In this document: piece after piece, positions 39,984-40,494 of the stretch
How the letters are laid out: every line of letters begins with the position of its first letter
Numbering within the stretch: position 1 is the first letter of the stretch
DNA from: Candidatus Zixiibacteriota bacterium
Lineage (GTDB): Bacteria > Zixibacteria > MSB-5A5 > UBA10806
Assembly: GCA_024641335.1 (NCBI GenBank)
Contig: JAHEDG010000006.1
Location: 38,359-94,567, forward strand
Length of the DNA: 56,209 nucleotides
Direction: 5' to 3'
The notes under the pieces: model-generated
What the model saw: only the letters and a program-made list of their open reading frames with translations
What the model was told of the DNA's origin: nothing
Database searches by the model: none
Translations under genes and position numbers: made by a program

Positions 39984-40310
39984 TTATAGCGGGGTCGATC
40001 CCGTCGCGGACCGAAACTCGCGGCCTTTCCCGGCCGTAGACCGGGGAGGTTTTAATCCTGACGGATCCGAATGGACCAAACGGTTGATACGGTCGTGGCT
40101 ATTCCAACCTTTTATCTCGCGTTCTCGTCTCATCGCCTCGATCCTCGTCGAAAATCGCTCGGTATAAACCAGTTCCTACGGATCATCCCTTTTCATGTAT
40201 TTCGATCTGCCCGCGTTATGACGTTTCTACCTGTCATCCAAATCGGAAGTACTGCCCGTATAATACTTACCGGTAGACAGGCTTTGGAGTATATAAGAAT
40301 ATTCTGGCAT
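39984..40310 (-). pseudogene. GIY-YIG endonuclease (UPF0213-type), broken by two stop codons
   Basis: Translating the minus strand from the ATG at 40310 gives an almost complete GIY-YIG domain in a single frame: 'MPEYSYILQSLSTGKYYTGS' opens it, 'KRHNAGRSKYMKRDDP' follows, and 'RREREIKGWNSHDRINRLV' holds the catalytic glutamate region. Two in-frame TAG codons interrupt it, at 40227-40229 (where relatives have Leu) and 40176-40178 (where relatives have Trp). Each is one base change from a sense codon. The frame then runs through the 31-bp repeat as GREFRSATGS and stops at 39984. It begins 13 bases after the tRNA-Asp gene, and its tail resembles the end of that tRNA. Such nucleases are found in mobile or intron-like settings. 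Confidence 0.8.
39995..40025 (-). repeat. 31-bp repeat, copy 2 (tail of the GIY-YIG remnant)
   Basis: Identical to 36972-37002. On the minus strand it is preceded by A and followed by CCCC, so the segment begins AGGCCGCGAGTT and ends TCGACCCC. Both ends match the T-arm and acceptor half of the tRNA-Asp 300 bases away; the middle differs and is about 7 bases longer. Confidence 0.85.
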
Positions 40311-40322
40311 CGAAATCAAATA

Positions 40323-40397
40323 CGGGGTCGACGAGACTCGAACTCGCGGCCTCCTGCGTGACAGGCAGGCGTTCTAACCAAACTGAACTACGACCCC
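40323..40397 (-). tRNA. tRNA-Asp (anticodon GTC)
   Basis: The minus strand folds as a full cloverleaf: acceptor GGGGTCG with CGACCCC and discriminator G, D-arm GTTC...GAAC, anticodon stem CCTGC/GCAGG with loop CTGTCAC, and T-arm GCGAG TTCGAGT CTCGT with GTTCGAGTC. CCA is not encoded. tRNA-Val lies 22 bases upstream on the same strand. Confidence 0.95.
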
Positions 40398-40419: not shown

Positions 40420-40494
40420 TGGGCAGTGCTGGATTCGAACCAGCGACCCTCTGCGTGTAAGGCAGATGCTCTAACCAAACTGAGCTAACTGCCC
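40420..40494 (-). tRNA. tRNA-Val (anticodon TAC)
   Basis: The minus strand gives acceptor GGGCAGT with ACTGCCC and discriminator A, D-arm GCTC...GAGC, anticodon stem TCTGC/GCAGA with loop CTTACAC, and T-arm CGCTGG TTCGAAT CCAGC. CCA is not encoded. It is probably cotranscribed with tRNA-Asp. Confidence 0.95.

Follow-up and report, generated by a model that had tools for sequence, protein, structure and literature searches.

The window, a 56,209-nucleotide stretch of a contig from a Candidatus Zixiibacteriota bacterium, contains on its minus strand a tRNA-Val, a tRNA-Asp, 12 bases, a GIY-YIG reading frame and a degenerate tRNA-Asp copy, in that order. The features of the locus are as follows.

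40420 to 40494, minus strand: tRNA-Val(TAC), the first of a conserved Val-Asp pair (ARAGORN; Rfam RF00005, 74.3 bits).
40323 to 40397, minus strand: intact tRNA-Asp(GTC), the host gene of the element (ARAGORN; Rfam RF00005, 71 bits).
39990 to 40322, minus strand: the whole element of about 330 bp, with limits as we infer them, comprising the spacer, the GIY-YIG pseudogene and the hairpin-marked tRNA-Asp copy.
39984 to 40310, minus strand: GIY-YIG nuclease pseudogene of 108 codons plus stop (PF01541, 57.6 bits; two TAG codons inside).
39990 to 40070, minus strand: degenerate tRNA-Asp copy (psi-tRNA), tRNA positions 5-75, overlapping the 3' end of the frame (local alignment score 21.5; 0 of 5000 shuffles as high).
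40055 to 40066, minus strand: palindrome ATCC-GTCA-GGAT in the D-arm region of the copy (read from the sequence).
40028 to 40047, minus strand: imperfect palindrome TCCCCGGTCTACGGCCGGGA (CCCGG/CCGGG stem) replacing the anticodon arm (from the alignment).
39997 to 40012, minus strand: weak imperfect palindrome GGTCCGCGACGGGATC in the T-arm region (read from the sequence).

A first-pass annotation had described a GIY-YIG frame between a tRNA-Asp and a tRNA-like tail, and ARAGORN, Rfam and PF01541 (57.6 bits, above the cut-off) showed this layout to be real; the spacer between the tRNA-Asp and the ATG was found to be 12 bases, not the 13 counted earlier. The frame continues through the tRNA-like tail, as had been read, to a terminal TAA at 39984-39986, and is interrupted by in-frame TAG codons at 40227-40229 and 40176-40178. 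Since TAG is an ordinary stop in this genome, in which the GIY-YIG gene of another locus (L001) terminates with TAG, the window copy is broken, in agreement with the earlier reading of a dead copy, and TAG recoding was unsupported.

The two words said to bound both the tail and the 3' half of the tRNA-Asp were each found twice in the window, AGGCCGCGAGTT at 40015-40026 and 40341-40352, and TCGACCCC at 39991-39998 and 40324-40331. The likeness to tRNA-Asp was thus confirmed, but its extent had been underestimated, as the alignment covers positions 5-75, nearly the whole tRNA and not only the 3' half. The score of 21.5 was not reached in any of 5000 dinucleotide shuffles (maximum 20.5), which rules out chance resemblance, and the best of 1390 other window segments scored 17.5 against tRNA-Asp. 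The copy is lengthened by palindromes in the D-arm and the anticodon arm, and by the weak third one in the T-arm region, and the att-like plain repeat proposed earlier is replaced by a hairpin-marked, near-complete tRNA copy. Within the element of about 330 bp there is no integrase gene, the GIY-YIG frame being the single recognised gene. A self-splicing group I intron or another known RNA family was rejected, as Rfam gave only tRNAs for the window and 20 loci, and the host gene is not interrupted, an intact tRNA adjoining the GIY-YIG gene.

We collected 114 small GIY-YIG genes, with UvrC left out, from the window genome and its relatives. Upstream of thirty of these, within 300 bp, lay a same-strand tRNA or tmRNA, and one had an opposite-strand one. 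With intact tRNAs masked, partial tRNA copies were present in 38 gene flanks, of which 21 were downstream and 17 upstream, and were always on the same strand; among 210 control segments located 500-900 bp away from the genes, 1 had such a copy. In the protein tree, 25 of the 37 members of a tRNA-type clade had a tRNA or tmRNA of the same strand at most 300 bp away, on one side or the other, and none had an opposite-strand one; in a related, mostly Ser-type clade the corresponding numbers were 11 of 17 and one. The UPF0213-like clade in Zixibacteria had no tRNA or tmRNA neighbour within 300 bp in any of its 50 members, which rules out that small GIY-YIG genes are in general associated with tRNAs. 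The tree also contained single-isotype subclades extending across families, namely a Gly group of seven and Met, Asn and Asp groups. At L001 of the window genome, an intact tRNA-Gly stands 5' of the GIY-YIG gene, and behind the gene comes a degenerate tRNA-Gly copy with the same 3' end.

Another tRNA-type gene of the window genome (L005, G000:C32:102939-103145) lies near a contig end, and the first 15 nt of the next sequence equal the start of a tRNA-Ser, a weak hint that this is possibly a Ser-type element. At two loci (L007, L144), GIY-YIG genes were observed approximately 160-190 bp behind a tmRNA gene, and no tmRNA copy indicating a duplicated target was detected at either.

The element occurs in two ARRANGEMENTS, a downstream type and an upstream type. 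The downstream type, to which the window belongs, consists of the intact tRNA, a spacer, the gene, and a copy that starts inside the tRNA and runs through to its 3' end. In the upstream type (L017, L026, L073), a copy from position 1 to approximately 56 is followed by the gene and then by the repeated 5' flank and the intact tRNA. The tRNA 3' end, as first proposed, is therefore not the only place of the element: the gene lies either 3' of the intact tRNA with a 3'-type remnant or 5' of it with a 5'-type remnant. Tandem gene-bearing units were found at L333 and tandem marked units at L081, L196 and L245.

Marked copies also occurred alone. At the tRNA-Asp locus they were present without a gene in five genomes (G037, G057, G029, G005, G009) and the gene was present in three (G000, G001, G019), with most relatives having neither. 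The first-pass annotation had held that a tRNA-like tail found alone just as often as with the gene would speak against a mobile element; this is partly so at Asp, by the five genomes to three, and not at Asn. The pattern of the marked Asn copy was found at 15 places in 8 of 132 genomes, and at none in the reversed control. All 15 places adjoin a tRNA-Asn or a contig end, and the gene lies in the same array in five of the six places with full context. One locus (L049, in G009), where no GIY-YIG gene was present, had three tandem marked tRNA-Asp copies upstream of the tRNA-Asp, with extra sequence inserted into the D-loop region of each. Many of the genomes in the whole analysis are metagenome assemblies in which contig ends fall inside arrays.

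At most loci read, the second tRNA copy has a stretch exchanged for a short palindrome, a change beyond simple decay. We found 113 palindromes with at least one tRNA-matching flank, and 60 of these matched on both sides. Exactly 17 nt were replaced in 22 of the 60; 23 spanned the anticodon arm, with junctions near tRNA positions 26 and 44, in ten kinds of tRNA; and 49 had TCC/GGA at the palindrome ends. In Asn copies, 10 nt had often been lost (near 24 to 35). The mark lay in the D-loop (12 to 20) in one Met group, and in the T-loop in Phe copies and in some Asp copies (51 to 58 and 50 to 59, respectively). The inner stem letters varied between copies with pairing kept (e.g. L217, L243), which indicates that the palindrome itself is maintained. 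Palindromes of the TCC...GGA form were approximately four- to six-fold commoner in GIY-YIG flanks than 500-900 bp away, where they were at the shuffled level, the distant segments being largely coding and so an imperfect control. Most marked copies read lacked one strand of the acceptor stem.

Three marked copies (L194:1115-1191, L194:1431-1506 and L226:1437-1516) passed tRNA detectors, which called them tRNA-Pro or tRNA-Ser, and copies of this sort will be entered as real tRNAs by annotation pipelines. Several UPF0213-like GIY-YIG genes without tRNA neighbours (L002, L003 on G000:C66, L088, L094, L107, L113 and L121) were also observed beside TCC...GGA palindromes, which in several of these loci were inverted on the two sides of the gene. 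This suggests that the GIY-YIG family at large has a REP-like partnership with palindromes.

A database-wide scan of one genome each for 84,980 species, with the alignment of the Gly clade as the query, gave 80 loci, from more than ten bacterial phyla plus archaeal loci. The bacterial phyla and lineages were Bacteroidota, Ignavibacteriota, Patescibacteria lineages, Margulisbacteria, Elusimicrobiota, Acidobacteriota, Nitrospirota, Thermotogota, Synergistota, Planctomycetota, Verrucomicrobiota, Armatimonadota and others. A same-strand tRNA lay within 300 bp in 56 of the 80 loci and an opposite-strand one in none, fractions that describe the tRNA-type family rather than GIY-YIG genes overall, since the query was of that type. 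The gene was 3' of the tRNA in 36 of the 56 and only 5' of it in 20. A copy of the nearby tRNA was found in 46 of 76 scan loci, and the reverse-complement control gave 1. No tRNA was found near the archaeal relatives (Bathyarchaeota, Hadarchaeota), whose twelve loci (L213, L221, L225, L233, L237-L239, L244, L246, L252, L188 and L189) make up half of the 24 loci without a tRNA. The elements sit on bacterial genome contigs. A scan of viral contigs gave 13 mostly weak matches with no tRNA nearby, and 10 phage records matched, each at less than 46% identity; neither viral carriers nor a location in a phage genome, of the kind known for SegB, was supported.

We searched 41 genomes of the genus of L241 with its tRNA-Phe locus and found a related gene in four (G132, G174, G152 and G176, the occupancy of G176 being known only as matching stretches). 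Among 19 inspected congeneric tRNA-Phe loci, 16 had no gene and no copy (background scores up to 14.5), and G174 and G152 were occupied and had a T-loop-marked copy. The locus of G140 was 94% identical through the 5' flank and the tRNA, and then diverged. At tRNA-Asn, a 436-bp GIY-YIG unit of G003 was absent from G001 of the same genus (g2), which keeps one solo marked copy. The element is thus present or absent sporadically at a fixed site in close relatives.

The tRNA isotype changed 42 times on the protein tree, which is based on approximately 90 columns of short proteins and is poorly resolved, compared with a mean of 63 (minimum 56) in 2000 shuffles. Shuffling within phyla gave a mean of 60 and a minimum of 52, again with none as low in 2000; when Zixibacteria were left out the signal was weaker, 20 of 2000 within-phylum shuffles being as low. 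A lineage-specific target is hence kept across distant hosts, more weakly so within phyla outside Zixibacteria, and vertical descent at a fixed locus could account for part of this fidelity. The dN/dS values were 0.06-0.20 in informative tRNA-type pairs, and judged by these values the GIY-YIG lineages are under purifying selection. Five of the 37 copies of the tRNA-type clade were broken by stops. Low dN/dS together with broken copies is the birth-and-decay pattern expected of homing genes.

The GIY-YIG nuclease of a living element is 80-90 amino acids long and represents a bare catalytic domain, whereas I-TevI has a separate DNA-binding domain. The residues Y6, Y17, G19, R27 and E63 (Tyr, Tyr-x-Gly, Arg, Glu) were invariant in the two alignments A1 and A3, and the PF01541 score over the cut-off, the catalytic residues and the fold all place the protein in the GIY-YIG superfamily. 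The AlphaFold model (pLDDT 89) was closest to UPF0213 BH0048, then to Slx1, the N-domain of UvrC and I-TevI; UPF0213 was the nearest relative by sequence too. Since Slx1, according to entry 6sei, acts on branched DNA, it is conceivable by analogy that the present protein recognises an extruded palindrome or a repair intermediate.

Taken together, the first proposal of a small tRNA-gene element with a homing-type nuclease and a duplicated tRNA piece was strongly supported across many genomes. We think that the window probably contains a dead copy of a minimal homing-type selfish element, of which each lineage is specialised on one tRNA gene. A living element has one GIY-YIG gene, with an intact host tRNA on one side and a partial copy of it on the other; in the copy, a segment (in many cases exactly the 17-nt anticodon arm, elsewhere the D-loop or T-loop) has given way to a palindrome, usually TCC...GGA. 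In a chromosome still without the element, the nuclease would cut the cognate tRNA gene, and repair would copy the element in, the homology arms being the 5' flank with the 5' part of the tRNA and the 3' part of the tRNA with the 3' flank. The host would retain one whole tRNA, so that the insertion would be tolerated, and the displaced tRNA part would remain as the marked copy. The palindrome may occupy the former recognition or cut site and block more cutting there. Continued breaks at the locus would give tandem arrays, and decay would leave dead genes, such as that of the window, and solo marked copies. Marked copies might also bind and titrate the nuclease, which would account for the persistence of solo copies as well. 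Homing of this kind would account for isotype fidelity, same-strand placement, the conserved intact tRNA, presence and absence, arrays and decay.

The homing model alone leaves unexplained how the adjoining intact tRNA escapes and how the palindrome originates. The marked copy is altered, but the adjoining intact tRNA looks unmodified and has no obvious recoding, so that self-cutting must somehow be avoided. A more far-reaching possibility, to which we give only tentative credence, is that the elements form a new class of tRNA-gene parasites in many bacterial phyla. The bare Slx1-like GIY-YIG nuclease and the TCC...GGA hairpins overwriting an arm of the duplicated tRNA would then be a two-part system, in which the hairpin would be the mark or binding site that tells own copies from targets, and would be made by a novel break-repair reaction.

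It is also possible, but unlikely, that tandem duplication of tRNAs came first and was followed by decay, a host repair gene of the Slx1/UPF0213-like kind being a passenger in the duplications. Solo marked copies without a gene, tandem arrays and the nearness of the protein to UPF0213 and Slx1 would all fit such a course of events. However, the exact exchange of 17 nt for TCC...GGA palindromes in unrelated phyla is not a product of decay, and the lack of tRNAs in the UPF0213-like clade (0 of 50), the strict same-strand placement and the tRNA-isotype fidelity also argue against it. More doubtful still is a system acting at the RNA level, in which the target of the GIY-YIG protein would be the cognate tRNA or the transcript of it, while the marked copy would be transcribed as a decoy or antidote RNA, in the manner of a toxin-antitoxin pair. 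The precise exchange of the anticodon arm for another hairpin, the placement of the copy on the strand of the tRNA, and the marked copies that still score as tRNA in Rfam (L194, L226) are consistent with this, but the majority of the copies read, lacking one acceptor-stem strand, could not fold as tRNA, and the GIY-YIG enzymes known to us cut DNA. Site-specific integration at tRNA att sites by an integrase supplied in trans, the GIY-YIG gene being its cargo, is very improbable: tRNA genes are classic att sites and the duplicated 3' end of the downstream form resembles attL/attR, but the position of the junction depends on the kind of tRNA (D-loop, anticodon arm, T-loop), it is the 5' part that is duplicated in upstream forms, the short elements have no integrase gene, and junction palindromes are not known as a feature of att sites.

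Should homing by a one-domain nuclease be correct, these would be among the smallest mobile elements, doing without an integrase and leaving behind a copy of the host tRNA that is marked by a hairpin. Such homing would also provide an explanation for many of the small GIY-YIG frames adjacent to tRNAs, for a number of pseudo-tRNAs that have been annotated as tRNAs, and for the pseudo-tRNAs that uncultured bacteria carry in tandem arrays.

No entry points for mobile DNA are better known than tRNA genes. Integrative elements with tyrosine integrases likewise enter at a tRNA gene and keep it whole by a duplicated end; the present elements differ in having no integrase, in duplicating either the 5' or the 3' side, and in their junction palindromes. 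Mobile GIY-YIG frames of fungal mitochondria carry a duplicated 3' end of the host gene (e.g. Allomyces atp6), and there, too, the carried copy keeps the host gene whole and the displaced end stays behind, but the host gene is a protein-coding mitochondrial one and hairpin-marked tRNA copies are not known to be part of the design. In the REP-RAYT system, a small nuclease-type gene is similarly combined with short palindromes, the gene being that of a Y1 transposase and no tRNA being known to take part. The UPF0213/COG2827-type proteins (1zg2, 1ywl) are the closest solved relatives by sequence and fold, and differ in that the UPF0213-like clade has no tRNA neighbour in Zixibacteria. The first-pass annotation knew of no named element of this design, and we likewise found no description of these elements in the open-licence literature. 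The closest known precedent is phage SegB, a free-standing GIY-YIG homing endonuclease in the tRNA clusters of phage T6, which drives tandem amplification of tRNA-segB segments by recombination between the tRNA 5' end and the segB 3' end (PMC13096335). A GIY-YIG gene among tRNA genes and tandem amplification are common to both systems. SegB-type genes are widely associated with tRNAs in phages, with no favoured isotype reported, whereas the present lineages follow one isotype and are located on bacterial contigs, and the available portion of the SegB report does not mention hairpin-substituted tRNA copies (PMC13096335). The present elements may extend the tRNA amplification mode of phage SegB to bacterial chromosomes.
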